Shown: positions 8,002 through 44,105 of the stretch, one piece after another | Position numbering within the stretch: the stretch's first letter is position 1 | How the letters are laid out: the number at the start of each line of letters is the position of its first letter | Source of the DNA: an uncultured Oscillospiraceae bacterium | Lineage (GTDB): Bacteria > Bacillota > Clostridia > Oscillospirales > Oscillospiraceae | Assembly (NCBI GenBank): GCA_944386985.1 | Contig: CALXDD010000020.1 | Span: 1-46,468, forward strand | Length of the DNA stretch: 46,468 nucleotides | Direction: 5' to 3' | The notes under the pieces: model-generated | The model's database searches: none | The model's input: only the letters and a program-made list of their open reading frames with translations | Told to the model about the DNA's origin: nothing | Position numbers and translations under genes: made by a program

Positions 8002-8846
8002 CGATGCCGAGGAAAAAGGTTCTTGGGGGCTTCTTTGTATGCGCCGCCGCGCTGGCACTCCTGATCTGGTATGGGGTAAAACAGCCGGAGCCGGGGCAGT
8101 GGCAGTCTCGACCCCTCTACGGCAGTTCCCTCTGCGACCGACAGCTGGGTAGCCCTTTTGCCGTCCAACTGGTGGCAACAAGAGACAGCGGATGGGATGG
8201 GGCTGCCGCGTCCTTTTATGCGGCCTTCGATGTGCCCTGGGCCTCTCTGGAGAATTGCAGCCTGACGAAAGCCGCGTCCATCGGGGGATATGACCTCTAC
8301 CAGGTCCAGGGAACGGTGACGATCACCGGAGATCCGGGGGAGGCGGAGTCCTTCCACTTGCGGGAACTCACCGTCAATGGCCAGACCATCTCGGGGGTGG
8401 AGAACCTGGTGTTTGAGGTGGAGCGGGAAGGAAATGACCGCTTCGCCTCGTTGGAGTTGCGGTCCTGCGCGGCGGGCGCGTTGGGCCTGGGACTGAAGGA
8501 CTACCACGCCTTTTTCCTCAATACCTCTGATGAGCCCCTCACCATCACCGCGGTGGAGGCGGCCCAGTATTCCACCGCCATCGGCGCCGTGGTGCAAGAC
8601 GGCGAGGTTCTGGACCTGCAAGACGGCCCTGTGGAGGTAGCGCCCGGGCAGGAGGTGGAGGTGCAGCTGATTTTTGAGCAGACGGAACAGGAGGAACTCA
8701 CCAGCTATTTCGCGGCGCCGGTGGTGTGGTACCGGGAGGACGGTCAGGAGCGGAGCGTCCAGCTGCAGACCTACCAGTCGGGGACGACCCTCTCCGATCA
8801 GGACATACAGCAGCTCGGCGATCTTCTGTTTCGTGACCGCGCCTGA
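7998..8846 (+). CDS. Membrane-anchored extracytoplasmic protein of unknown function
   Basis: 282 residues. A basic N-terminus and one hydrophobic segment (about residues 8-26, VLGGFFVCAAALALLIWYG) predict an N-in, C-out anchor or uncleaved signal; the rest is soluble, acidic and beta-rich. ATG 7998 overlaps the stop of the preceding exported-protein gene (ATGA), so the two are translationally coupled and probably work together at the cell surface. Base composition returns to the high-GC host pattern. No family was recognised. The gene ends at a terminator shared with the convergent khpA operon. Confidence 0.7.
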   Translation: MTMPRKKVLGGFFVCAAALALLIWYGVKQPEPGQWQSRPLYGSSLCDRQLGSPFAVQLVATRDSGWDGAAASFYAAFDVPWASLENCSLTKAASIGGYDLYQVQGTVTITGDPGEAESFHLRELTVNGQTISGVENLVFEVEREGNDRFASLELRSCAAGALGLGLKDYHAFFLNTSDEPLTITAVEAAQYSTAIGAVVQDGEVLDLQDGPVEVAPGQEVEVQLIFEQTEQEELTSYFAAPVVWYREDGQERSVQLQTYQSGTTLSDQDIQQLGDLLFRDRA

Positions 8847-32409: not shown

Positions 32410-32494
32410 GCGAGTGTGCTGGAACTGGTAGACAGGCACGTTTGAGGGGCGTGTGACAACCGTCGTACGGGTTCAAGTCCCGTCACTCGCACCA
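32410..32494 (+). tRNA. tRNA-Leu (anticodon GAG)
   Basis: Acceptor GCGAGTG pairs with CACTCGC, discriminator A and encoded CCA at the end. The anticodon loop reads TTTGAGGGG with GAG in the centre; a long variable arm (GTGACAACCGTCGTAC region) and the GGTTCAAGTCC T-loop are typical of class II leucine tRNAs. Confidence 0.95.
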
Positions 32495-32525
32495 CCTTTT
32501 CTCTCCAAGAACAGACAGCCTATGC

Positions 32526-32613
32526 GCGCGAGTGGTGGAATTGGCAGACTCGCTAGATTCAGGTTCTAGTGTTCATTACGGACGTGCGGGTTCAAGTCCC
32601 GCCTCGCGCACCA
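32526..32613 (+). tRNA. tRNA-Leu (anticodon CAG)
   Basis: Acceptor GCGCGAG pairs with CTCGCGC, discriminator A, encoded CCA. Anticodon stem CTAGA/TCTAG with loop TTCAGGT gives CAG; the long variable arm and GGTTCAAGTCC loop fit leucine. It is 31 bp after the first tRNA and shares its promoter. Confidence 0.95.
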
Positions 32614-32818: not shown

Positions 32819-33274
32819 ATGAAAAAACTGAGAGGATTGGTAGTTCTTGCACTGGTCGCAGCGGTGCTGACGGCGGTAGGCGTGTTCGCGGCAGGAAACG
32901 GCGCGGGCCGGGGAAGCTGGGGAAACCATTGCCGGTATGTGGACGCTGACGGCGACGGGGTCTGCGATAACCAGGGTGTGTACTGCCAGTTTGTGGACGC
33001 CAATGGCGATGGAATCTGTGACAACCATGGCACTTATTGCCAGCATGTGGATGCCAGCGGCGACGGGATCTGCGACACCCACGGCACGTACTGCCAATAT
33101 GTGGACGCCGACGGCGACGGGGTCTGTGACAACCAGTGCACCTATTGCCGCCATCTGGACGCTGACGGCGACGGCCTGTGCGACAGCTGCGGCGAGACCT
33201 GCCCCGCAGGGACCGGCGTTTCCTATGGCGGCGGCCGGCAGCACCACGGTGCGGGACGCGGCTGCGGGAGATAA
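32819..33274 (+). CDS. Secreted repeat protein with five Cys/Asp-rich 18-residue units
   Basis: 151 residues. Signal peptide of about 25 residues (VVLALVAAVLTAVGVFAAG). From about residue 38 there are five consecutive 18-residue repeats of the type C-x-x-V-D-A-D-G-D-G-x-C-D-N-x-x-x-Y, then a Gly/His/Cys tail. D-x-D-G-D-G is a calcium-loop signature (EF-hand/thrombospondin-3-like); two cysteines per unit could form disulfides or bind a soft metal. AGGAGG precedes the ATG. The ECF sigma and RsgI-type genes follow directly, so it may be the output of that system. No family name is assigned. Confidence 0.75.
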   Translation: MKKLRGLVVLALVAAVLTAVGVFAAGNGAGRGSWGNHCRYVDADGDGVCDNQGVYCQFVDANGDGICDNHGTYCQHVDASGDGICDTHGTYCQYVDADGDGVCDNQCTYCRHLDADGDGLCDSCGETCPAGTGVSYGGGRQHHGAGRGCGR

Positions 33275-33772: not shown

Positions 33773-34514
33773 ACAGCTGAAGGAGGCCCTGGATCAGGTC
33801 CAGGCCAGCCAGGAAATGAAGGAGAGGACCCTGGCCTATCTGGACCGCCGGACCCACGGTTTTCGCCGCGCTGCGCCCAGAGCGGCGGGGTGGGTGCTGG
33901 CGGCGGCCTGCTGCTTGGTGCTGATGCTGGTGGGCGGTACCCTCTATTTCACCCCTACCGCCGCCATCAGCGTGGATGTGAACCCCTCCCTGGAGTTGGA
34001 GGTCAACCGCTTCGACCGTGTGATCTCTGTGAAGGGCTACCAGGAGGACGGCCAGGCGCTGGCGGACTCGGTGGACCTCGGCCATCTCTCCTACACAGAG
34101 GCTCTGGAGCGGCTGATGGCCAGCGAGACGATCGTAAACTGCCTGGCCAATGAGGAGCTGCTCTCTATCACCGTGGTGGGCGACGAGACCCAGCGGACGG
34201 CTATTTTAGCGGAGGCGGAGCGCTGGGCCGCCGGGTCGGAGAATATCTGCTGCGGCGCCGGCAATCCGGAGGAGGTGGGGCATGCCCACGAGGCGGGGCT
34301 GTCCTTCGGCAAGTATCAGGCATTTCTGGAACTGCAGGCCCTGGACCCCTCCGTTACGGAGGAGGACGCGGCGGGGATGACCATGCGGCAGATCCAGGAC
34401 CGGATCGATGCCCTGACCGGCGGCTCCGCAGGACAGTGGACCTCTGGAGATACCTGCGGAAACGGGACTGGCGGCGGCCACCATGGCTACGGCTGGGGAG
34501 GACGTCATGAATAG
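33765..34514 (+). CDS. RsgI-type membrane anti-sigma factor
   Basis: 249 residues. A short cytoplasmic N-part (MREQLKEALDQVQASQEMKE onward, about 40 residues) would bind the sigma factor, followed by one membrane helix (GWVLAAACCLVLMLVGGTLY) and an outer domain containing AAISVDVNPSLELEVNRFDR, typical of RsgI-like anti-sigmas. The C-end is Gly/His-rich (GGGHHGYGWGGRHE), echoing the tail of the secreted repeat protein. ATG 33765 follows GGAGGTGAGG and overlaps the sigma stop; a GTG at 33756 is a weaker alternative. Confidence 0.85.
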   Translation: MREQLKEALDQVQASQEMKERTLAYLDRRTHGFRRAAPRAAGWVLAAACCLVLMLVGGTLYFTPTAAISVDVNPSLELEVNRFDRVISVKGYQEDGQALADSVDLGHLSYTEALERLMASETIVNCLANEELLSITVVGDETQRTAILAEAERWAAGSENICCGAGNPEEVGHAHEAGLSFGKYQAFLELQALDPSVTEEDAAGMTMRQIQDRIDALTGGSAGQWTSGDTCGNGTGGGHHGYGWGGRHE

Positions 34515-34566
34515 AGAAATGGACGGCGGCATCGCCCCCCGAAACGCCGCCCTGGCATGTAGAATT

Positions 34567-34597
34567 AAAAACGCCCGACAGATGTCGGGCGTTTTTT
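34567..34597. terminator. Bidirectional terminator between the RsgI-type and DtxR-type genes
   Basis: A 14-bp perfect stem AAAAACGCCCGACA with TGTCGGGCGTTTTT around GA, plus an extra T. It serves both convergent genes. Confidence 0.92.
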
Positions 34598-34604
34598 GCT
34601 GGAT

Positions 34605-34991
34605 TTATTTGGGTAAAAGCTGTTCCGGGTGACGGCGGACAAACTGTCGGATGGCGTCAAAGCTCTCAGCACTGATGACATGTTCCATTCTGCAGGCGTC
34701 CTCGGCGGCCACAGCGGGGTCTACCCCCAGAGCGGACAGCCAGCCGGCGAGAAAGGTGTGGCGCTCATAGATCCGCTGGGCGATCTCCAGCCCTGCCTCC
34801 GTCAGTGTGATGTGGCCTGCGCCGTCCACCTCCACATAGCCGTTTTCCCGGAGATTTTTCATGGCGATGCTGACGCTGGGCTTGGAAAAATCCAGCTCTC
34901 CGGCGATGTCGATAGCCCGGACGTGTCCGTTGCGCTGATGGAGCACCAGGATCGTCTCCAGATAGTTTTCAGCGGACTCCTGTATTTTCAT
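34605..34991 (-). CDS. DtxR/MntR-family metal-dependent regulator (short)
   Basis: 128 residues: winged helix (SAENYLETILVLHQRNGHVR, SKPSVSIAMKNLRENGYVEV) and the metal-binding dimerisation part (ERHTFLAGWLSALGV, ACRMEHVISAESFDAI) with the usual H-E-H pattern. It lacks the SH3-like C-domain, so resembles MntR. It probably represses Mn or Fe uptake genes elsewhere. ATG 34991 follows AGAGGAGG; the longer open frame upstream is not used. Confidence 0.9.
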   Translation of the reverse strand: MKIQESAENYLETILVLHQRNGHVRAIDIAGELDFSKPSVSIAMKNLRENGYVEVDGAGHITLTEAGLEIAQRIYERHTFLAGWLSALGVDPAVAAEDACRMEHVISAESFDAIRQFVRRHPEQLLPK

Positions 34992-35457
34992 AGGCGCCTC
35001 CTCTCTAAGCTCTGTGTTCGGCATACCGCAATATATAACGTATAGCGGCGCGATTGCAGCCGGTATGATGTTAAATATTTTATCACAGGGCGGCGTTTTT
35101 CGCAAGCGAGGGCCGCATGACAGGCCGGAAAGAACAGACTTGTGTTGATTTGATATATTATGATTTAATAATACACATCCCCGGGTTTGGAGGGAAGACG
35201 AAAAGAAACTTTACATGGAGAAAGCGAATTTTTGAGGAAAATTTCAAGAAATGGAAGGGCCATTCCGGAAAAACGGACAGAAGCACAAAAAGCACCAGGG
35301 GAATTTGTGGAGATTCGATAAGGGAACATTGTTGCAATCCATAGGGGTGTGTGATAAAATATGTATATCATTTTTGAGTTTTGCAGTGTTTTACATGAAA
35401 AGTGTTGAATTAAGTTATTAAAAATAATTCTACACAAATCCGGAGAGGGAGATCGAT
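34992..35457. other. 466-bp AT-rich intergenic region before the BMC-associated operon
   Basis: No gene is supported. It contains a TATATTATGATTTAATAATA stretch near 35155-35175 and a partly symmetric GATAAAATATGTATATC at about 35353-35369, both candidate regulator sites. The 90 bp before the TTG at 35458 are very AT-rich, fitting a promoter region, but I cannot point to an unambiguous -35/-10 pair. Base composition is unlike the flanking genes. Confidence 0.5.
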
Positions 35458-36357
35458 TTGGCCAGTGCCTACATGATATATATGGATGGCCGGTACGAGT
35501 GCCTGGGTGTGGAAGGGAATCTCCGGCGGGACCGCCAGGGGACCTTTCTGCTGTCCTTTCTGGATCAGGACTTTCAGGCGGTGGCTGACGAGGCCCAGAG
35601 CCTGCGGCGGCAGGCCTACCATATCGAGCAGATGTACCGGAGCTACCAGCAGCTGTGCGGCCGATTTCAGGAGACCCACCTCCTGTTCCGTCTGGAGCTG
35701 GAGCGGATGGCTGACAGCGCCGACAGCCTCTACGCCGTGGGGCAGTGGGCAGGGGAGATGGCCCGCTTCCAGACGCTGATGGCCGCCGCGGTGGCCCGGG
35801 TGTTGGATCGGGAGACCGGCGGCAGCGACACCGGCCGGCGGTACCGGCAGCTTTTGGAGGAGGTGTCGGAGCTGTCCCGCTTGGCGGACCGGCTCCATGA
35901 GAGCGTGGGGGTGCAGTATGCCTTTGCCTCCGGCCAGGGACAGCTGTGCCTGACCGCCAAGGATCTGCGGGCGCTGCTGTTTTTGTCCTTTGAATATCTG
36001 GTGTCCCAGGGGTATGCTCTGGGCCGCTGTCTCAACTGCGGCCGGTATTTTGTTCCCTTCTCGGTGAACACCTGCTACTGCGACCGGCCCGCCGGAGAGG
36101 GGCGGACCTGCAAGTCCTTTGCGGCCAAGGCCAATTACGCCAGAAAGCTGCAGGAGGATCAGGCCCGGAGCCTCTATGTCCGGCTGAACAATACCTATCA
36201 GATGCGGGTCCGCCGCGCGCCGGACAGCTATCCGGCGGAGGAGTACCACCGCTGGCGCCAGGAGGCGAAAGAGCTGCTGGCCCAGGTGGAGCAGGGCGGG
36301 ATGACCTGCGAAGAATATCAGCAGAAGATCGCGCTGCCCAAGCGGCGGCGGGGCTGA
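35458..36357 (+). CDS. DUF6076-like protein with C-terminal zinc finger
   Basis: 299 residues. The first 180 are helical; then CLNCGRYFVPFSVNTCYCDR followed by GRTCKSF gives a cysteine cluster like the CGNR/DUF6076 zinc-finger region, with a basic C-end (KRRRG). The start is a TTG (35458) with GGAGAGGGA 7 bp upstream; an ATG five codons on is the alternative. The alcohol-dehydrogenase gene follows after 20 bp, so this appears to be the first gene of the BMC operon. A nucleic-acid-binding or regulatory role is possible but unproven. Its link to BMCs is not one I know. Confidence 0.65.
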   Translation: MASAYMIYMDGRYECLGVEGNLRRDRQGTFLLSFLDQDFQAVADEAQSLRRQAYHIEQMYRSYQQLCGRFQETHLLFRLELERMADSADSLYAVGQWAGEMARFQTLMAAAVARVLDRETGGSDTGRRYRQLLEEVSELSRLADRLHESVGVQYAFASGQGQLCLTAKDLRALLFLSFEYLVSQGYALGRCLNCGRYFVPFSVNTCYCDRPAGEGRTCKSFAAKANYARKLQEDQARSLYVRLNNTYQMRVRRAPDSYPAEEYHRWRQEAKELLAQVEQGGMTCEEYQQKIALPKRRRG

Positions 36358-36377
36358 GAGAAAGAAGGAGCTTGCGC

Positions 36378-37592
36378 ATGGAACATCAGGTAATTGAGCT
36401 GGTGCAGCCCCGGCACACCCTGATTGGGGAGGGCAGCATCCAGGAGATCCCCCGGTATCTCCGGCGGATTCAGGACAATGTGACGGCTCTGGTGGTCACG
36501 GACCAGGGACTGGTGAAGATCGGGACGGTGAAGAAGGTCACCGATGAGCTGGAGCGGGCGGGTATCCGCTACTGCCTCTACGACGGTGTGCAGCCAAACC
36601 CCACCGTGGGCATCGTCAACGAGGCCATGGACCGCTACCGCCGGGAGAACTGCGGCTGTATCATCGCCATCGGCGGCGGCTCCCCCATCGATGTGGCCAA
36701 AGCTGTCAGCATCCTGGCGGTGAACGGGGGCCGGATCGAGGACTATGTGGGCGTGAACAAGTCTGCCCGTCCCGGGGCCCCCATTGTGGCGGTGAACACC
36801 ACCGCCGGCACCGGCAGCGAGGTGACCTGTGCCTATGTGATCACCGACGAGGTGAAGAATGTGAAGCTGGTGATGATGGACCCCAACTGTCTGGCCTATC
36901 TCGCCATTGACGATCCCACCCTGATGGTGGGGATGCCCCCGGCCCTGACGGCGGCCACCGGCATGGACGCCCTCACCCACGCGGTGGAATGCTACGTCTG
37001 CCGGGAGGCCACCCCTTACACCGACGGTCTGGCCCTGGAGGCCATCCGCCTGGTGGGAACGGCTCTGCGCCGGGCGGTGAAGGACGGCGGGGACATGAAG
37101 GCCCGGACGGACATGTGCTGGGCGGAGTATCTGGCGGGGCTTGCCTTCTCCAACGCTGGCCTGGGCCTCGGTCACAGCATCGCCCACCAGCTGGGGGCCC
37201 AGTACCACATCCCCCACGGGGAGGCCTGTGCCCAGATTCTGCCCCGGGTGATGGAGTTCAACACCCCCGCCTGCCGCGGGCGGATGGGGGAGATCGCCAA
37301 GGCTCTGGGGGCGGATACCTCCGGTCTTACCGAGGAGGAGGCCGCCCAGCTGGCGGCGGACAGCGTCCGGGATCTGTGCGATGATGTGGGCATCCGGCCC
37401 ATCCACGCCTGTGGATTTTCCATGGACGACATCGGCCTTCTGGCCCGGCACGCCATGGAGGACACCTGTATCCCCTCCAACCCCGTGACGCCCACGGCGG
37501 AGGAGGTGGAGCGCATCATTGCCAAAGCCTATTGCGAGGGACTGGTGGTGGAGGCCATCCGCCAGCAGGGAGTTGGAAGGGAGCGGACATGA
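36378..37592 (+). CDS. Iron-type (group III) alcohol dehydrogenase, BMC-associated
   Basis: 404 residues. NAD site IIAIGGGSPIDVAKAVSIL, phosphate loop NTTAGTGSEVT, and iron ligands in DALTHAVECYV and GLGHSIAHQLGAQYHIPHGE. It would reduce an aldehyde to the alcohol with NADH, recycling NAD within or beside the shell, as PduQ and EutG do. No clear encapsulation peptide at either end. ATG 36378 (GAAGGAG upstream) is chosen over a TTG two codons earlier. Its stop overlaps the pduL start (ATGA). Confidence 0.9.
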   Translation: MEHQVIELVQPRHTLIGEGSIQEIPRYLRRIQDNVTALVVTDQGLVKIGTVKKVTDELERAGIRYCLYDGVQPNPTVGIVNEAMDRYRRENCGCIIAIGGGSPIDVAKAVSILAVNGGRIEDYVGVNKSARPGAPIVAVNTTAGTGSEVTCAYVITDEVKNVKLVMMDPNCLAYLAIDDPTLMVGMPPALTAATGMDALTHAVECYVCREATPYTDGLALEAIRLVGTALRRAVKDGGDMKARTDMCWAEYLAGLAFSNAGLGLGHSIAHQLGAQYHIPHGEACAQILPRVMEFNTPACRGRMGEIAKALGADTSGLTEEEAAQLAADSVRDLCDDVGIRPIHACGFSMDDIGLLARHAMEDTCIPSNPVTPTAEEVERIIAKAYCEGLVVEAIRQQGVGRERT

Positions 37593-38236
37593 GCGAAAAT
37601 AAAATTGTGATCCAGGACCGGGAGCAGCAGCTGGTGACGACCTATGTGATCTACCGGGAGACCGGGCGGATCTTCGTGCCGGCGGCCTCCTCCAACCGCC
37701 ACGTCCATCTGACGGCGGAGACTCTGGCGCGGCTGTTTGGCCCCGGCTACCAGCTGACGCCTCAGAAGGCGCTGTCCCAGCCCGGCCAGTTTGCCGCGGC
37801 GGAGACGGTGACGGTGGCGGGTCCCAAGGGGGAACTGAAAAAGGTGCGGGTGCTGGGTCCGGTCCGGAAGGAGGACCAGGTGGAGATCTCCCGGACCGAC
37901 TCCTTTAAATTAGGGGTGAAGCCGGTGGTGCGGATGTCCGGCGACGTGGCCGGGACGCCGGGAATCAGGCTCATCGGTCCGGCGGGTGAGGTGGAGATCC
38001 CCCAGGGGGTCATTGTGGCAGCCCGGCATCTCCACCTGTCGCAGGAGCAGTGTGAGACCTACGGCCTCCGGGACGGACAAGTGATCTCCCTGCGCAGCAG
38101 CGGAGAGCGGGCCGCAATTTTGGAAAATGTGGTGGTCCGGTCGGGACCGGGCCATGATATGGAGGTCCATTTGGACACCGATGAGGCCAACGCCATGGCC
38201 ATGCCCAACGGCGAGATGCTGGAGGTCGTGCAATAA
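37589..38236 (+). CDS. pduL: PduL-type phosphate acyltransferase
   Basis: 215 residues with the two zinc-binding beta-barrel motifs SNRHVHLT (about 36-43) and AARHLHLS (about 145-152), and RTDSFKLGVKPVVRMSG between them, all diagnostic of PduL. It exchanges acyl-CoA with phosphate to make acyl-phosphate, recycling CoA inside the shell. The N-terminal extension (MSENKIVIQDREQQLVTTYV) differs from the amphipathic tag of Salmonella PduL. It overlaps the alcohol-dehydrogenase gene by 4 bp. Confidence 0.93.
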   Translation: MSENKIVIQDREQQLVTTYVIYRETGRIFVPAASSNRHVHLTAETLARLFGPGYQLTPQKALSQPGQFAAAETVTVAGPKGELKKVRVLGPVRKEDQVEISRTDSFKLGVKPVVRMSGDVAGTPGIRLIGPAGEVEIPQGVIVAARHLHLSQEQCETYGLRDGQVISLRSSGERAAILENVVVRSGPGHDMEVHLDTDEANAMAMPNGEMLEVVQ

Positions 38237-38253
38237 GGAGAACCGAGAGCAGA

Positions 38254-38919
38254 ATGGACAGAGAGCAGCTGCACAAGTTGATAGAGGAGGTCACCGGCGA
38301 GGTGGGCCTGCGGCTGGAGCGAAAGCAGGGCGGCAGACGCCGCTGCGGGGAACGGGTGGTGCTGCTGCCTGCCCCGGCGGCCTTTCCCCGGGAGCTGCAG
38401 GAGTGTCTTCTCCGGCGCTACAGCGGCGGATGGACTACCGTGGACCTCACCGGCGGCGGGGATCTCCCGCCTGAGCAGCTTGACCGGCAGCACCTCCAGG
38501 AGCTGGTGAGCCAGGCGGAGGTGGTGGCGCTGGCCGCGCCGCCCATTGCCCTTCTGCGGGAGATCGCCGCGGGGGAGGACGGCTCCGATCTGGCGTATCT
38601 GGTGATCCGGGCCATTTTGTGGGGGAAAAAGGTGGAGCTTCTGCTGGACTTCGACCCGCCGAAGTTTCGCCGCAACAGTTTTCTCGGCCAGGTGGCCGAG
38701 GCGGTGGACACCCTTCGCTCCATGGAGGTGGAGGTGGTGAACTACCGCCTGAGCCGCCCAAGGCAGGCGCTCATGGACCTGGTGACGGAGGAGGCGGTGC
38801 GGGAGGCGGCCAGAACCCGGGAGCGGGCCCTCTGGTGCGAGAAGGGCGCTATCATCACTCCCTCCGCACGGGACGCCATCCGGGAGCTGGGCGTGGAGAT
38901 CCGATACGAAAAGGAGTAG
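38254..38919 (+). CDS. BMC-associated protein of unknown function, possible cargo
   Basis: 221 residues. The N-terminus DREQLHKLIEEVTGEVGLRL forms an amphipathic helix followed by a basic linker, like BMC encapsulation peptides. The central part has alternating strands and helices (VVALAAPPIALLREIAAGED, GKKVELLLDFDPPKF) reminiscent of flavoprotein folds, and the C-end GAIITPSARDAIRELGVEIR resembles short helical segments found at the ends of BMC accessory proteins. I cannot name a family. It lies between pduL and the first EutN-type gene, with 4 bp to the latter, so it is part of the operon. Confidence 0.6.
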   Translation: MDREQLHKLIEEVTGEVGLRLERKQGGRRRCGERVVLLPAPAAFPRELQECLLRRYSGGWTTVDLTGGGDLPPEQLDRQHLQELVSQAEVVALAAPPIALLREIAAGEDGSDLAYLVIRAILWGKKVELLLDFDPPKFRRNSFLGQVAEAVDTLRSMEVEVVNYRLSRPRQALMDLVTEEAVREAARTRERALWCEKGAIITPSARDAIRELGVEIRYEKE

Positions 38920-38923
38920 AGCC

Positions 38924-39232
38924 ATGCAGTTAGCGAGAGTGAAGGGCACGGTGGTCAGCACCAACAAGGCGGAGACTCTCATGGGGATGAAGCTGCTGAT
39001 CGTCAAGCCCATTGATATTGAGACCTGGGAGGAGAAGGGCAATCTCCTGGTGGCCGTCGACGCGGTGGGCGCGGGAGAGGGCGAGGTGGTCATGGTGGTC
39101 AGCGGCAGCTCCTCCCGCCAGACCAGAATGACGGAGAACCGGCCCACGGATTTGACTATCGCCGCCATCATCGATACGGTGGACGTGGGCGGAAAGCGGG
39201 TTTTTGAAAAGTTTGTCAACGAGAAACACTGA
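38924..39232 (+). CDS. EutN/CcmL-type BMC vertex protein (first of three)
   Basis: 102 residues, single BMC-P domain: MQLARVKGTVVSTNKAETLM, then LLVAVDAVGAGEGEVVMVVS and the conserved end AAIIDTVDV. Pentamers of this fold cap the icosahedral vertices of the shell. ATG is 4 bp after the preceding stop. Similar proteins are at 41498 and 42069. Confidence 0.93.
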   Translation: MQLARVKGTVVSTNKAETLMGMKLLIVKPIDIETWEEKGNLLVAVDAVGAGEGEVVMVVSGSSSRQTRMTENRPTDLTIAAIIDTVDVGGKRVFEKFVNEKH

Positions 39233-39269
39233 GTGGGCCTGAGAGGGCGGGAAGCCGAGGTGGCAGGGA

Positions 39270-40583
39270 ATGGATGTCAAGGAAATGGTGATGAACGCGG
39301 GGATCTTAGGCGCCGGCGGCGCGGGATTTCCCACCCATGTAAAGATCAACTGTAAGGCGGAGGTAGTCATCGTCAACGGGGCCGAGTGTGAGCCTCTTTT
39401 GCGGGTGGACCAGCAGGTGATGGAGTTGTACGCCGCTGAGGTGGTGGAGGGGCTCCGCCTTGTGGTGGAGCACACCGGCGCCAAGGAGGGTGTCATCGCC
39501 CTGAAGGAACACTACCATGGGGCGGTGAAGGCATTGGAGGAGGCGGTAGAGGGGATGGACAATATCCGCCTTTATCTGCTGCGCTCCTACTACCCCGCCG
39601 GCGACGAGCAGCAGATTGTCCACGAGGTCACCGGCCGGGTGGTGCCCACCGGAGGACTTCCTCTGGACGTGGGGGCGGTGGTGTGCAATGCCAGTACCCT
39701 TTTGAATGTGGCCCATGCCGCCGCCGGGAAGAAAGTGGTGGAAAAGTATGTGACAGTGGGCGGTGCGGTGCGCCAGCCCAAGACGGTGAAGGTACCGGTG
39801 GGTACCTCCTGCCGGGAGCTGCTGGAGGCTGCCGGCGGCGTGACGGAGCCCTGCCGCTACCTCATCGGCGGGCCCTGCATGGGCAAGGTGGCGGAGGATC
39901 CCGACGTGCCGGTGACCAAGACCACCGGCGGCCTTCTGGCCATCCCGGTAAACCACCCCTATTGGAAGATGCGGGACGAGAAGCTCAATTTGCAGCTTAT
40001 CCAGTCGGTGTGCTGCCAGTGCTCCATGTGCACCCAGATGTGTCCCCGCAACGCCCTGGGGCTCAACGTGCAGCCCCACAAGGCCATGCGGACCATCGCC
40101 CAGGGCATCGACCTTTTGGGCGACGCCAACGGCATCTTTTCCTGCTGCAACTGCGGGCTGTGCACCTATTACGCCTGCAACTTCGGCCTCCATCCCTCCC
40201 AGGTGATGCAGGAGCTGAAGGGGGCCCTGATGGCCAAGGGCGTAAAGCCCCGGAAGGAGGTCTTCACTTCCGTGGACCGGGGGATCGAAAATAAAAAGGT
40301 GCCGGTGAAGCGGCTTGTCGCCCGGCTGGGACTGCAAAGCTATGATGTGGCCGCTCCCCTGGAGGACAAACTCCTCACCACCAGCTGCGTGCGGATCATG
40401 CTGCGCATGGGCGTGGGCGCTCCCAGCGTGCCGGTGGTGGCCGTGGGGGACAAGGTGCGGAAGAACACCCTGGTGGCGGACATCGCCCCGGGCAAGCTGG
40501 GCGTGAAGATGCACGCAAGCATCTCCGGCACGGTGACCGCCGTGACGGACAGCTACATTGAGATAAGGAAGGCGACGGTATGA
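39270..40583 (+). CDS. PduS-type iron-sulfur flavoprotein (RnfC-like)
   Basis: 437 residues. N-terminal RnfC-like glycine motif GILGAGGAGFPTHVK and NGAECEPLL, an SLBB-type segment (VTVGGAVRQPKTVKVPVGTS), two cysteine clusters for [4Fe-4S] (CCQCSMCTQMCPRNALG and CCNCGLCTYYACNFG) and a C-terminal barrel-sandwich-like part. In the Pdu shell, PduS reduces cobalamin and docks on PduT. No B12-dependent enzyme is seen here, so here it more likely moves electrons between NADH and a partner through the shell (inference). Its stop overlaps the start of the PduT-type gene. Confidence 0.9.
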   Translation: MDVKEMVMNAGILGAGGAGFPTHVKINCKAEVVIVNGAECEPLLRVDQQVMELYAAEVVEGLRLVVEHTGAKEGVIALKEHYHGAVKALEEAVEGMDNIRLYLLRSYYPAGDEQQIVHEVTGRVVPTGGLPLDVGAVVCNASTLLNVAHAAAGKKVVEKYVTVGGAVRQPKTVKVPVGTSCRELLEAAGGVTEPCRYLIGGPCMGKVAEDPDVPVTKTTGGLLAIPVNHPYWKMRDEKLNLQLIQSVCCQCSMCTQMCPRNALGLNVQPHKAMRTIAQGIDLLGDANGIFSCCNCGLCTYYACNFGLHPSQVMQELKGALMAKGVKPRKEVFTSVDRGIENKKVPVKRLVARLGLQSYDVAAPLEDKLLTTSCVRIMLRMGVGAPSVPVVAVGDKVRKNTLVADIAPGKLGVKMHASISGTVTAVTDSYIEIRKATV

Positions 40584-41125
40584 ACGCATTAGGGATGATC
40601 GAAGTAAACAGCATCCCCGCCGGTGTGGAGGCGGGGGACGCCATGCTGAAGGCCGCCGCCGTGGAGCTGGTGACGGCCCAGAGCGTCTGCGCGGGCAAGT
40701 ACATCGTGCTGATCACCGGCGAGGTGGCGGCAGTGCGGGAGAGCGTAGCGGCGGGAACCGCCGCCGCGGGAGTGAAGCTGGTGGACAGCATGGTCATCGC
40801 CAGCGTCCATCCCCAGGTGCCCCAGGCCATCAACGCCTGCACGGAGATCGGCCGGGTGGCCGCCGTGGGGGTGATGGAGGCATTCTCCCTCTGTGCGGCG
40901 GTGCTGGCGGCGGATGCGGCGGTAAAGGCCGCGGACGTGGAGCTGATGGAGATCCGGCTGGGCCGGGGCCTCGGCGGCAAGTCCTTTATCGTCCTCACCG
41001 GCGAGGTGGCGGCGGTCCGGGCCGCGGTGGACGCGGCGGAGAGCCTGGAGGAGACCGCGGGGCTTATGAACGACAGCGCGGTGATCCCGGCGCCTCACCC
41101 GGATATGGTACGGGCCCTTTATTAA
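40580..41125 (+). CDS. PduT-type tandem-BMC shell trimer protein
   Basis: 181 residues, two BMC domains (about 1-88 and 93-180: ALGMIEVNSIPAGVEAGDAM and AAVGVMEAFSLCAAVLAADA). Cys37 in QSVCAGKYIVL corresponds to the pore cysteine that holds a [4Fe-4S] cluster in PduT. Pairing with the PduS-type gene (4-bp overlap) supports an electron conduit through the shell. The 90 bp after it lead to the next gene with a new ribosome site. Confidence 0.92.
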   Translation: MNALGMIEVNSIPAGVEAGDAMLKAAAVELVTAQSVCAGKYIVLITGEVAAVRESVAAGTAAAGVKLVDSMVIASVHPQVPQAINACTEIGRVAAVGVMEAFSLCAAVLAADAAVKAADVELMEIRLGRGLGGKSFIVLTGEVAAVRAAVDAAESLEETAGLMNDSAVIPAPHPDMVRALY

Positions 41126-41215
41126 ACAAAGGTTTCTGCCCGGTCGGCTGTGCCGTCCGGAGAACATATTCATGAAATCAATACAACAGGATTTAAAATG
41201 TAGGAGGATACAATT

Positions 41216-41491
41216 ATGAAGTTAGCACTTGGTATGGTAGAGACCAGAGGTCTGATCGGCGCCATTGAGGCAGCGGATGCCATGGTAAAGGCCGCCAATG
41301 TCAAGCTCATCGGCAAGGAGCAGATCGGTTCCGGCCTGGTGACCGTGATGGTCCGGGGCGACGTAGGCGCGGTGAAGGCCGCTGTGGAGGCCGGTTCCTC
41401 CGCCGCCAAGGTGGTGGGCGAGTTGTACGGCGTCCATGTGATCCCCTCTCCCCACGACGACGTGGAGGCCATTCTGCCCACCCTGGGCTAA
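41216..41491 (+). CDS. PduA-type BMC hexamer shell protein (copy 1)
   Basis: 91 residues, single BMC domain, with the PduA-like pore segment [20 protein letters not shown]. It forms the hexagonal facets; the small Gly-Ser-Gly pore suits small polar metabolites. GTAGGAGG precedes the ATG. The copy at 41786 is nearly identical in DNA and protein except near the C-end and a few internal positions. Confidence 0.95.
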
Positions 41492-41497
41492 GGCGCC

Positions 41498-41773
41498 ATG
41501 GTTACCGGCGAGGTGGTTGGCTGCGTGGTGTCCACCGTAAAGGAGGAGGGCCTTCGCAATGTGCCCCTTTTGGTGGTACAGCTGATTGAGAAGGGCCAGC
41601 GGACGAAGATGATCGTAGCCGCGGACTCCACCGGTCAGGCGGGCCAGGGGGACTTCGTCTATGTCATCAGGGCCCGGGAGGCGTCCCGGATCTTCCGGCG
41701 GCCGCTGGTGCCCTCGGATGCGTCCATCGTTGGCTTTATTGATTCCTATAACCTATCCATTCAAAACGAATAA
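41498..41773 (+). CDS. EutN/CcmL-type BMC vertex protein (second)
   Basis: 91 residues: MVTGEVVGCVVSTVKEEGLR, LLVVQLIEKGQRTKMIVAAD, and the closing SIVGFIDSYNL. It begins 6 bp after the first hexamer gene. The sequence is clearly diverged from the other two vertex paralogues, so the three may occupy different vertices or form mixed assemblies. Confidence 0.92.
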   Translation: MVTGEVVGCVVSTVKEEGLRNVPLLVVQLIEKGQRTKMIVAADSTGQAGQGDFVYVIRAREASRIFRRPLVPSDASIVGFIDSYNLSIQNE

Positions 41774-41785
41774 GGAGAAAACGTT

Positions 41786-42064
41786 ATGAAATTAGCACTT
41801 GGTATGGTAGAGACCCGGGGCCTGGTGGGCGCCATTGAGGCCGCGGATTCCATGGTGAAGGCCGCCAATGTGAAACTCATCGGCAAGGAGCAGATCGGTT
41901 CCGGTCTGGTGACCGTGATGGTCCGGGGCGACGTGGGCGCGGTGAAGGCCTCCGTGGAGGCGGGCGCTGCCGCTGCCAAGCGGGTGGGCGAGCTGTACGG
42001 CGTCCATGTGATCCCCTCTCCCCACGACGATGTGGAGGCCATTCTGCCCACGGTAAAGGACTGA
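41786..42064 (+). CDS. PduA-type BMC hexamer shell protein (copy 2)
   Basis: 92 residues; long stretches of DNA are identical to the 41216 copy (including codon choice across the pore segment [18 protein letters not shown]), with substitutions such as [12 protein letters not shown] and [12 protein letters not shown] and a different last few residues (TVKD). GGAGAAAACGTT precedes the ATG. Recent duplication or gene conversion is the simplest explanation. Confidence 0.95.
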
Positions 42065-42068
42065 GCCC

Positions 42069-42356
42069 ATGCGGATGGCGCAGGTGGTGGGCAACGTGGT
42101 GTCCACCATCAAGGACAGGGGCTATGCCGGACAAAAGCTGATGATCGTGGATTTTTTGGATGAGGCGGGCCGCCGGACCGGCGAGACTGCCATCGTCTTC
42201 GACGCGGCCCAGTCCGGTGTGGGGGACGTGGTGCTGGTCAGCATTGACGGCGGCGCGTCCGGCATGCTGCTGGGCAGGGAAGTGATCGCGGATATGACCA
42301 TCTGCGGCGTGCTGGACAGCATGACCCTGGACGGGGACACCAGAACCTATTTGTAA
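42069..42356 (+). CDS. EutN/CcmL-type BMC vertex protein (third)
   Basis: 95 residues: MRMAQVVGNVVSTIKDRGYA, LMIVDFLDEAGRRTGETAIV, ending MTICGVLDSMTLDGDTRTYL. It starts 4 bp after the second hexamer gene, repeating the hexamer-vertex gene order. Confidence 0.92.
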   Translation: MRMAQVVGNVVSTIKDRGYAGQKLMIVDFLDEAGRRTGETAIVFDAAQSGVGDVVLVSIDGGASGMLLGREVIADMTICGVLDSMTLDGDTRTYL

Positions 42357-42361
42357 AGGAG

Positions 42362-42390
42362 CCATCCCGCCGGCAAATCCGGCGGGATGG
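42362..42390 (+). other. Intra-operon hairpin before the DeoC-like gene
   Basis: A perfect 12-bp stem (CCATCCCGCCGG with CCGGCGGGATGG) around CAAAT. No T run follows, so it is not a standard terminator; it may protect or process the shell-protein mRNA end. The in-frame ATG at 42387 lies inside it, which argues against that codon as the start of the next gene. Confidence 0.65.
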
Positions 42391-42413
42391 TGTCTGTGAG
42401 AGGAGGGACCGGC

Positions 42414-43130
42414 GTGGATCTGCGGCGGATCACCAAGGAAGTAGAGCGGCAGATGCTCCGGTCCACCCGGGGCAAGATTCGCCGGGGGGACCTGCTGTGG
42501 ACGCCATCCACAGTGTCCGGAGCTCTGTCGGCGGATGTACTGTGCCCGCTCTGTACCCCGGAGCGGGTGGAGCGGGTGTGCCGGGAGGCCCGGCGGCGCT
42601 CGGCGGCGGCGGTGACGCTGCTGCCCGCCTTCGTGTCCCAGGGCCGGGACCTGCTTGCCGGCAGTGCCACGGTGCTGACGGCGGCGGTAGGCTACCCCTG
42701 GGGGTCCCTGACGCCCAGCGCCCGGACGGCCCTCGCCAGGGACTGCATTGCGGCGGGGGCCGACGAGCTGGAGGTGGCGCTGGACCAGGCAGCGGTGAAA
42801 TCCGGGGCTCTGGCCCGGGAGCAGGAGGCCCTTGGCGAGCTGGTAAAGCTGGCCCGGTCAGGAGGGCGGACCCTCTCGGTGCTGGTGGATCTTCGCCTTC
42901 TGACGGAGTCGGAGCAGGTGGATGTGCTGACAGTGCTGCGCCGGTGCGGAGCGGATCTGGTGACCCTCCGCAAGTGCGCCGACCCGGCGGATGTGCGTCT
43001 GGCCCAGGAGCTGCTGGGCAGTCAGGCGGCGGTGAAGGCCGCCACCCATCAGCCGGAGGATTACCACCTGGCACGGTCCCTGCTGGATGCGGGGGCCCTG
43101 CGGGTCGGCGTCAGCCAGCTGGCGGAATAG
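42414..43130 (+). CDS. DeoC-like (deoxyribose-phosphate aldolase family) BMC cargo candidate
   Basis: About 238 residues. TAAVGYPWGSLTPSARTALA and GADELEVALDQAAVKSGALA match the DeoC beta-alpha barrel. In DeoC the Schiff-base lysine lies in a strand reading F-I-K-T-S-T-G; here the matching strand reads LVTLRKC, with Thr at that position, and the second active-site Asp is Glu. The later VKAAT lysine is kept. The N-terminus MDLRRITKEVERQML is an amphipathic helix like an encapsulation peptide. GTG 42414 has AGGAGGG 6 bp upstream. It probably acts on a different substrate or by a different mechanism from classic DeoC. Alignment is by eye. Confidence 0.75.
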   Translation: MDLRRITKEVERQMLRSTRGKIRRGDLLWTPSTVSGALSADVLCPLCTPERVERVCREARRRSAAAVTLLPAFVSQGRDLLAGSATVLTAAVGYPWGSLTPSARTALARDCIAAGADELEVALDQAAVKSGALAREQEALGELVKLARSGGRTLSVLVDLRLLTESEQVDVLTVLRRCGADLVTLRKCADPADVRLAQELLGSQAAVKAATHQPEDYHLARSLLDAGALRVGVSQLAE

Positions 43131-43143
43131 GAAGGATGAGCGC

Positions 43144-43190
43144 AAGGCCCCGCCGGGGGAGTTTTCCGGCGGGGCCTTGGTTTGTTTTCT
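43144..43190 (+). terminator. Terminator of the BMC operon
   Basis: A 13-bp perfect stem (AAGGCCCCGCCGG with CCGGCGGGGCCTT), 9-base loop, followed by GGTTTGTTTTC. Confidence 0.88.
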
Positions 43191-43199
43191 ACAGGTTGA

Positions 43200-43240
43200 A
43201 GCATGCCCCGGGAAGTTTTCCCAAAATTAACGGGGATGCC
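43200..43240 (+). other. Stem-loop in the leader of the phospholipase-like gene
   Basis: GCATGCCCCG pairs with CGGGGATGC (one bulge), enclosing GGGAA-GTT-TTCCC. It lies about 70 bp before the start codon. It could be part of a regulated leader or a chance structure. Confidence 0.3.
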
Positions 43241-43307
43241 TCTTGCAATGGTCCCGCCTTTGATGCAAACTATAAGAAATAGCTTACCAACCACAGGAGG
43301 AACTGTC

Positions 43308-44105
43308 ATGCCATCCCACTACGCCCACTGGTACTTTGGCAGCCTGGTCCAAAAGGCGCTGCCCGCTCCTCTGGCGAAGCTGGTCCGCAGCTGGCCGGAG
43401 CCTTTTCTGGCCGGTCTCCAGGGACCGGATGTGCTGTTTCACTACCATCCGCTGCGCCCAAACCCCATCAGGGGGGAGGGGAGCGCCATCCACAGCCGCT
43501 CCGGTCTGTGCTTTTTTACCCAGGCCCGGGACATTCTTTTGCAAAAGGATACTCCGGCAGGGCGCAGCTATCTGGCGGGCTTTCTCTGCCACTACATGCT
43601 GGATACCGCCTGCCACCCCCTGGTGGAGAAAGGCATGGCGGCGTCGGGGGCCTCCCACAGCTCGGTGGAGACAGACCTGGACCGCGTTTTGATGGCCCGG
43701 GACGGAGTGGACCCCTACGACAAGGCTTCCATGGACCTGCTGCCTGCCTCCCGGCCTTTGGCGGAGACAATGGCCCCTTTCTACCCTCCCGTGACAGCCG
43801 CCCAGATGGAGACGGCTCTCCGAGGCATGCGGCGGGATATTCGCCTGACCCGAGTGCGAAGCGGTGCGGCCCGGGCTGTGATCTTCCGGGTGCTCCGGAT
43901 GACCGGCACCTATGAGGGGTATCACGGCATCTTCTTTGATCCCCGGCCTCTGTCCGGCTGTGAGGAGAGCACACGGCGGCTGGTGGGGAAGCTGGAGGCG
44001 GCGGTAGAGGAGACGGCGGGGGAGATTGAGCGCTTTTTTACCGCAGTGGATCAGGGGGAATCCCTCAGTCAGCGGCTGAAATGGAATTTTGGAGGGACGT
44101 TATGA
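43308..44105 (+). CDS. Zinc-dependent phospholipase C family protein
   Basis: 265 residues, helical. Histidine/aspartate motifs HYAHW (about 4-8), GPDVLFHYHP (about 42-51), HSRSG and GFLCHYMLDTACHPLV (about 85-100) match the zinc-dependent PLC/S1-P1 nuclease-like family. There is no signal peptide, unlike secreted clostridial PLC, so it is likely cytoplasmic with an unknown phosphodiester substrate. ATG 43308 follows AGGAGG. Its stop overlaps the start of the MFS gene. Confidence 0.85.
   Translation: MPSHYAHWYFGSLVQKALPAPLAKLVRSWPEPFLAGLQGPDVLFHYHPLRPNPIRGEGSAIHSRSGLCFFTQARDILLQKDTPAGRSYLAGFLCHYMLDTACHPLVEKGMAASGASHSSVETDLDRVLMARDGVDPYDKASMDLLPASRPLAETMAPFYPPVTAAQMETALRGMRRDIRLTRVRSGAARAVIFRVLRMTGTYEGYHGIFFDPRPLSGCEESTRRLVGKLEAAVEETAGEIERFFTAVDQGESLSQRLKWNFGGTL

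Follow-up and report, generated by a model that had tools for sequence, protein, structure and literature searches.

How can a bacterial microcompartment (BMC) operon work when it encodes a shell, a phosphotransacylase and an alcohol dehydrogenase (ADH), and neither an aldehyde dehydrogenase (AldDH) nor a signature enzyme? The operon in question occupies positions 35458-43130 of a 46,468-nucleotide stretch, hereafter the window, which is C20:1-46468 (contig CALXDD010000020.1) of an uncultured Oscillospiraceae bacterium (genome G000, GCA_944386985.1; 2.99 Mb on 83 contigs, completeness 95.5%, contamination 2.3%). We propose, at a probability of about 0.78, that it encodes half of a hybrid ethanolamine-utilising (EUT) metabolosome whose genes are split between two loci, that it descends from a sugar-phosphate-utilising (SPU) type of operon, and that the other half lies on contig C1 of the same genome. 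The gaps of the two loci are complementary, and the two clusters therefore probably build one ethanolamine organelle.

The operon is intact, with all genes open on the plus strand. Behind its first gene, an iron alcohol dehydrogenase (36372-37592; PF00465/PF25137) is followed by the phosphotransacylase PduL (about 37589-38236; PF06130, E 5e-74), a 221-residue PduM-like protein (38254-38919), the first pentamer-forming shell protein, BMC-P1 (38924-39232; PF03319, E 6e-29), a PduS-type flavin/Fe-S protein (39270-40583; identified by profile matches and tree) and a PduT-type BMC-T shell protein (40580-41125; two PF00936 stretches, TIGR02526 E 3e-37, under its cut-off). The remaining shell genes are BMC-H1 (41216-41491; PF00936, E 8e-29), BMC-P2 (41498-41773; PF03319, E 6e-18), BMC-H2 (41786-42064; PF00936 match at 41795-42022) and BMC-P3 (42069-42356; PF03319 match at 42069-42317), and the last gene encodes a DeoC-like protein (42387-43130; TIGR00126, E 3e-21, 75.7 bits against a cut-off of 117.3). 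A first-pass annotation had listed three BMC-P, two BMC-H and one BMC-T gene together with PduS, PduL and the iron ADH in one operon, and all of them are present. It had also reported AldDH and signature enzyme to be absent between the upstream region and the terminator, which our searches bear out: tblastn with SPU AldDH or with the genome's own EutE found no AldDH in the window, no known signature enzyme lies within 35458-43130, and BMC-P1 and PduS are separated by a gap of 37 bp (39233-39269). RpiB had no match among the operon proteins scanned.

The enzymes that the operon lacks are encoded at C1:7004-16749, where the order is EutV, EutW, EutA, EutB, EutC, EutL, EutE, EutM, EutT, EutS, EutP. 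EutE scores 769.7 bits against the TIGR02518 cut-off of 620.1 (acetylating acetaldehyde dehydrogenase), EutB, EutC, EutL and EutP exceed curated NCBIfam cut-offs, EutA at 556 bits falls just under its cut-off of 598, and EutT has a cobalamin adenosyltransferase domain; EutV and EutW are named from their position and from general response-regulator and kinase matches, not from an ANTAR domain. In this eut locus tblastn found no BMC-P, PduL, PduS or PduT. Across the genome there are eight BMC-domain matches: the window accounts for every one of the four on C20, and the other four lie at C1:7474-10948, one of them sub-cut-off. All three BMC-P matches and the single PF06130 phosphotransacylase match, PduL, belong to the window. 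The AldDH family has six matches on five genes, among which EutE alone adjoins BMC genes and the gene on C8 is AdhE-like; whole-genome searches found no relocated eut block and no second BMC AldDH. No single locus thus holds a full EUT set, its parts being split over C1 and C20, and pooling the two gives the EutBC lyase with its reactivase EutA, EutE from C1, the phosphotransacylase and ADH from the window, and shell genes. The first-pass annotation had suggested searching for an acylating AldDH with an encapsulation peptide, and the search ends at EutE, which keeps a C-terminal peptide resembling one in all five species that carry a window-type operon. The same annotation would have given up its reading for a complete AldDH and signature enzyme in an adjacent satellite locus; in substance this is what the genome shows, for a complete AldDH and an ethanolamine ammonia-lyase do exist, although on another contig and not adjacent.

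What the operon has lost becomes apparent from its relatives. A search for the 221-residue protein across 400 family genomes gave matches in 16, namely three in this genus, three short C-terminal matches that were set aside (G013, G221, G316) and ten SPU-type genomes outside the genus (G052, G089, G092, G137, G205, G250, G287, G321, G352, G378), whose relatives share 31-44% identity. All ten SPU loci run PduL, 221-residue relative, BMC-P1 and then AldDH (467-469 residues in the seven with known ends), so that the enzyme sits where the window has its 37-bp gap. ADH precedes PduL in 9 of the 10, and the window enzyme is 58-61% identical to the ADH of loci L108, L111 and L113. After the last shell gene come DeoC1 and DeoC2 in each of the nine loci whose contig reaches that far (G205 is cut), followed in eight of the nine by triosephosphate isomerase (TIM), of which the G089 stretch shows none, and a Synergistaceae locus (L131) follows the same plan. 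AldDH is present in none of five window-type loci and all ten SPU loci (Fisher p = 0.0003; here and below, genomes are taken as independent and kinship is ignored). Because PduS directly follows BMC-P1 in four other species of the genus too, an assembly accident is unlikely. The operon carries no core AldDH and no TIM or RpiB of its own, while its three BMC-P genes and the lineage of PduS and PduL are those of SPU loci. In quick trees, in which G031 and some SPU sequences are long-branched, the genus PduS clusters with SPU PduS (support 99) and the window PduL joins SPU and aldolase-II-type PduL, apart from all EUT PduL (support 100). The SPU loci vary: in three of the ten (G205, G287, G378) neither PduS nor BMC-T stands between AldDH and BMC-H, loci of this form in a single genus being L286 (cut by a contig end), L288 and L291, and in a locus from a reindeer metagenome-assembled genome AldDH is split into two frames (L129:2885-4289).

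The relatives of the C1 locus show the reciprocal pattern. EutB occurs in 22 of 149 family genomes besides this one, and PduL and BMC-P are kept in 12 of 12 eut loci outside the genus (11 of those 22 genomes, and G221), most of which are without PduS or PduT. In G031 (C50), which has the same EutVW order, a block of PduL, BMC-P, PduS and BMC-T stands between EutT and EutS, where the carrier genus has nothing. In G052 and G089 an SPU and a eut locus coexist, and neither lacks an AldDH, a PduL or a BMC-P of its own, while two other genomes (G092, G137) have an SPU locus without EutB; in general, therefore, neither kind of locus depends on the other.

Within the genus the two halves travel together. 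Among 11 genomes, window-type PduS (84-100% identity) is found in five (G000, G150, G154, G155 and G156), and EutB in exactly those five (Fisher p = 0.002). The operon order is identical in all five carriers, with open frames of 61-98% identity; tblastn found neither SPU AldDH nor TIM in any of the five window-type loci, a query with EutE likewise found no AldDH there, and PduL, BMC-P, PduS and BMC-T were absent by tblastn from all five eut loci. Two contigs end early, the G154 eut contig before EutV and the G155 operon contig inside the DUF6076 gene. EutE as query found no SPU-kind AldDH across the five carrier genomes. One candidate, an AldDH-like gene on contig C95 of G156, was set aside, as ADH also matches it and it fits an AdhE fragment; another on C17 of G156 is 35% identical to EutE and has no reference BMC protein matching in the surrounding 6 kb. 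Of the other genus members, G086 and G158 have a BMC that comes with a class II aldolase and an AldDH of its own, and the remaining four give no BMC-P match. The recurrence of the pair in five genomes also argues against either half having come from contamination.

These distributions bear on whether there might instead be two organelles, the window operon forming its own BMC for another aldehyde with EutE borrowed and the eut enzymes working open and unshelled. Having both BMC-H and BMC-P, the operon could build a shell alone. It has a promoter-like site of its own at 35332-35360 on the plus strand (sigma-70-like, TTGCAA-17-TAAAAT with an extended TG; a consensus match, with a similar stretch at the same place in an upstream alignment of four genus genomes), a signal shared with eut was not found, and C5 carries, away from the BMC loci, a DeoC that could make acetaldehyde. 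However, the eut loci keep EutM, EutS and EutL in all five carriers and yet have no pentamer gene, the three BMC-P matches of each carrier lying in the window-type operon only, and their phosphotransacylase is gone. The operon is never found without EutB among the 11 genomes, whereas the SPU loci that stand without EutB in G092 and G137 retain their own AldDH. We consider two separate organelles unlikely.

In order to rationalise one organelle built from two loci, we start from an SPU-type BMC operon that would have lost AldDH, the second DeoC and TIM and retained the shell, PduL, PduS, ADH and the PduM-like protein, while the C1 half would be an EutVW-type ethanolamine operon after loss of PduL, BMC-P, PduS and PduT. 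The enzyme steps are those known for the families. EutBC would split ethanolamine, perhaps released from glycerophosphoethanolamine by a phosphodiesterase encoded beside the eut genes, into acetaldehyde and ammonia. EutE would form acetyl-CoA, from which the window PduL would make acetyl-phosphate and free CoA, the window ADH would make ethanol and regenerate NAD+, and PduS would carry electrons. The window BMC-P proteins would supply the pentamers that close a shell of mixed origin, with parts from each locus. We infer co-assembly in one shell, co-expression of the loci and the substrate in vivo.

Downstream of the eut genes, on the same strand (L015:1078-6979), lie genes for a type I phosphodiesterase, a transporter of the major facilitator superfamily (MFS), a glycerol-3-phosphate antiterminator, a GlpA-like FAD oxidoreductase and a DUF1667 protein. 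The phosphodiesterase is kept beside eut in all five carrier species, the MFS gene was seen in G000 and G150 only, and a search of the G000 genome gave no EutH. Taken together, these neighbours and the failure to find EutH suggest that the organism may feed its organelle from glycerophosphoethanolamine.

Several observations weigh against one organelle from two loci. EutV-type tandem ANTAR-like hairpins, sought in the window and ten loci with what we take to be the consensus (hexaloop A..G..), were found in neither locus leader, the pairs recovered lying in coding stretches; as the G031 leader is also without them, this test is weak. Rfam gave no riboswitch, five sources yielding tRNAs only, and its two matches over 34500-43500 had E values of about 0.5, which is chance level. 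A common upstream motif in the three of five carrier genomes compared was not clearly better than in three shuffles each. The five carrier species may form one clade, in which case the co-occurrence may be a single event, and the four other than G000 are only 76-90% complete, so that genome-wide absences there are weaker than absences inside loci. Trees of BMC-H are unstable, the genus EutM falling on the SPU side in a first run (support 84) and with eut BMC-H in a rerun (support 92), both values unstarred; two approximately unbiased (AU) tests of its placement (p 0.86 and 0.76) reject neither grouping. Finally, forced hybrid BMCs in Salmonella had reduced activity, according to the part of PMC12866334 that treats them.

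The first-pass annotation had named the DeoC-like and the 221-residue proteins as candidates for a novel signature activity, which would make the operon a new kind of BMC. Purifying selection acts on both proteins in the species pairs compared, and the 221-residue protein passes no curated family score. In the DeoC-like protein, however, alignment shows the Schiff-base lysine replaced by T, V or S and the conserved aspartate by glutamate in five of five species, the second lysine being kept in G000, G150 and G154 and changed to A in G155 and G156; the operon differs from the SPU loci in having no DeoC-type aldolase with a catalytic lysine. Both lysines and the aspartate are kept in all six aligned SPU DeoC1 proteins, and all five aligned SPU DeoC2 proteins (four from the family and one from Synergistaceae, those of the other five family SPU loci lying outside the alignment) retain KTSTG together with the second lysine and the aspartate. 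We take the catalytic roles of these positions to be as in E. coli DeoC. As for the 221-residue protein, it is weakly PduM-like, and its relatives sit in SPU loci that already have AldDH and aldolases. A novel signature enzyme is accordingly a claim we do not uphold, and we regard it as highly improbable.

Both proteins may instead be structural. The DeoC-like protein retains an N-terminal helix resembling an encapsulation peptide, and we infer a former aldolase with a scaffold-like, structural or linker role. The 221-residue protein matches the PduM family weakly (TIGR04493, E 4e-5, 23.5 bits under a curated cut-off of 50), so it is like PduM in sequence, perhaps outside the family proper. 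Its AlphaFold (AF2) model, built on four sequences with a mean pLDDT of 77, has an N-terminal helix at residues 3-24 of moderate to low confidence, followed by a low-confidence stretch; the helix is encapsulation-peptide-like. A search for solved structures related by sequence gave only two matches, both ribosomal L13 (E 0.3 and 0.9), taken as chance. PduM is described, in the relevant part of PMC12108088, as a structural protein bearing an N-terminal signal sequence. The weak PduM likeness and the occurrence of relatives in SPU loci beside AldDH and aldolases point to a structural role for the 221-residue protein as well.

Two further features of these proteins deserve mention. By eye, a short stretch like AIITPSARDAIRELGVEI can be made out in three proteins, at the C terminus of the 221-residue protein (window about 38842-38900), at that of a PduL fusion (L109 about 8580-8642) and close to the N terminus of EutT (L015 about 8395-8455), and is perhaps a shared BMC docking element. 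SPU DeoC2 (L108:5990-6814 and relatives) has a C-terminal cysteine-rich, ferredoxin-like tail in all five aligned proteins, one with altered spacing; the Fer4 matches in it are under Pfam cut-offs, and such a tail is odd for an aldolase.

Loss of key enzymes would also fit an SPU operon that is decaying towards loss and has no present function. We estimated the ratio of nonsynonymous to synonymous substitution rates (dN/dS) by the Nei-Gojobori method for three species pairs and 10 of the 12 operon genes, the BMC-H genes being left out and not every gene entering each pair. The DeoC-like gene has the highest value of the tested operon genes in each pair (0.24-0.36), as decay would have it; the other nine range over 0.05-0.33. 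Yet all these values are well below 1, frames are open in five species at 61-98% identity, and among the most constrained genes are PduL, PduS, BMC-T and BMC-P1, those that supplement eut. Judged from its coding sequence, the DeoC-like gene itself is under purifying selection, and we find decay scarcely credible.

With these alternatives weighed, we return to the split ethanolamine metabolosome. We favour, at somewhat better than even odds, its stronger form of a natural obligate hybrid produced by reciprocal loss in an SPU and an EUT locus, with vertices, phosphotransacylase and electron carrier from one lineage, substrate enzymes and AldDH from the other, and a dead aldolase retained inside the shell in a structural or linker role. 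If true, two BMC operons that each depend on the other for their missing parts would test, in nature, how far shell, cargo and enzymes can be interchanged between BMC families. A locus catalogued as incomplete, or as one of unknown function, may likewise be half of a split organelle, so that the complete genome is needed to judge it, and the DeoC-like protein would be a case of a signature enzyme retained after loss of its active site.

At its edges, the operon opens with a gene for a 299-residue DUF6076 protein (35458-36357, plus strand; PF19553, E 3e-15), possibly a regulator of the operon, that stands at the same position in all five genus operons (61-80% identity; the G155 copy is cut) and is also present in the SPU locus L111 (36% identity). 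The role of the iron ADH behind it is probably PduQ/EutG-like. A terminator-like hairpin with a 17-bp stem follows at 43143-43179 on the plus strand (a consensus match). Directly downstream (43203-44105) is a gene for a zinc-dependent phospholipase C family protein, which is kept in G156 (63%); the stretches from G150 and G154 showed no copy, and the G155 contig ends earlier; a 36% relative adjoins the eut locus of G078 (L124). Further upstream, the window carries two tRNA genes and then a small protein in which DADGDG-type motifs repeat (32410-32610 and 32819-33274).

Compared with known systems, the window operon shares with SPU loci its gene order, its PduL and PduS phylogeny, three BMC-P genes and a 3' DeoC-family gene, and differs in the loss of AldDH, the second DeoC and TIM and in a DeoC-like protein without catalytic lysine. 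In the parts of the two papers that define them, SPU loci were first recognised by TIM plus a DeoC-like aldolase (Axen 2014, PMC4207490), and RpiB was named for them in 2021 (Sutter 2021, PMC8217296); in the SPU relatives studied here, a test of 10 flanking proteins showed no RpiB. The C1 locus has EutVWABCL, EutE, EutM, EutT, EutS and EutP in the same order as EUT2-like EutVW loci (G031:C50 and L127, the EUT2 label being a judgement), and lacks their PduL, BMC-P, PduS, PduT and one BMC-H, which the window supplies in SPU form. As to class, metabolosomes with incomplete core (MIC) have AldDH without a full core and BMCs of unknown function (BUF) have no AldDH, in the class definitions of PMC8217296 and PMC4207490. 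The window alone is near BUF, and pooled with C1 it belongs to neither, since AldDH, phosphotransacylase, ADH and signature enzyme are then all present; of the two affinities that the first-pass annotation had offered, that to DeoC-carrying SPU loci is shown by the relatives, and that to the incomplete-core class falls away.

The locus types described in PMC8217296 already include satellite loci, a satellite AldDH and EUT modules that accompany SPU loci. There, SPU3, SPU6 and HO main loci likewise pair an SPU-type shell locus with distant lyase genes, but those modules, EutABC with EutL, are read as an extra substrate, whereas here the eut locus contributes the AldDH itself, no SPU signature enzyme is left and neither half is complete. 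The ACI BMC of the same account consistently has its AldDH encoded apart from the shell genes, in a satellite locus, as here; it differs in belonging to Acidobacteria and in having a class II aldolase as locus enzyme, and is not described in that account as an ethanolamine system. We recognised no description of reciprocal loss that leaves neither half complete and retains a dead aldolase in the literature searched, the catalogue's supplementary locus diagrams lying outside that search. Salmonella regulates EUT and propanediol-utilising (PDU) BMCs mutually exclusively, preventing mixed compartments, as stated in PMC8217296, and this exclusion, together with the weaker forced hybrids, would make a natural merged pair notable. 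A parallel to the shell that we propose, mixed from two BMC families, is offered by the hybrid Pdu/carboxysome compartments of Salmonella in the section of PMC12866334 on hybrids, which also cites Pdu/Eut hybrids from Sturms 2015; those compartments were engineered or forced and had lower activity, whereas the pair described here is natural and kept in five species.

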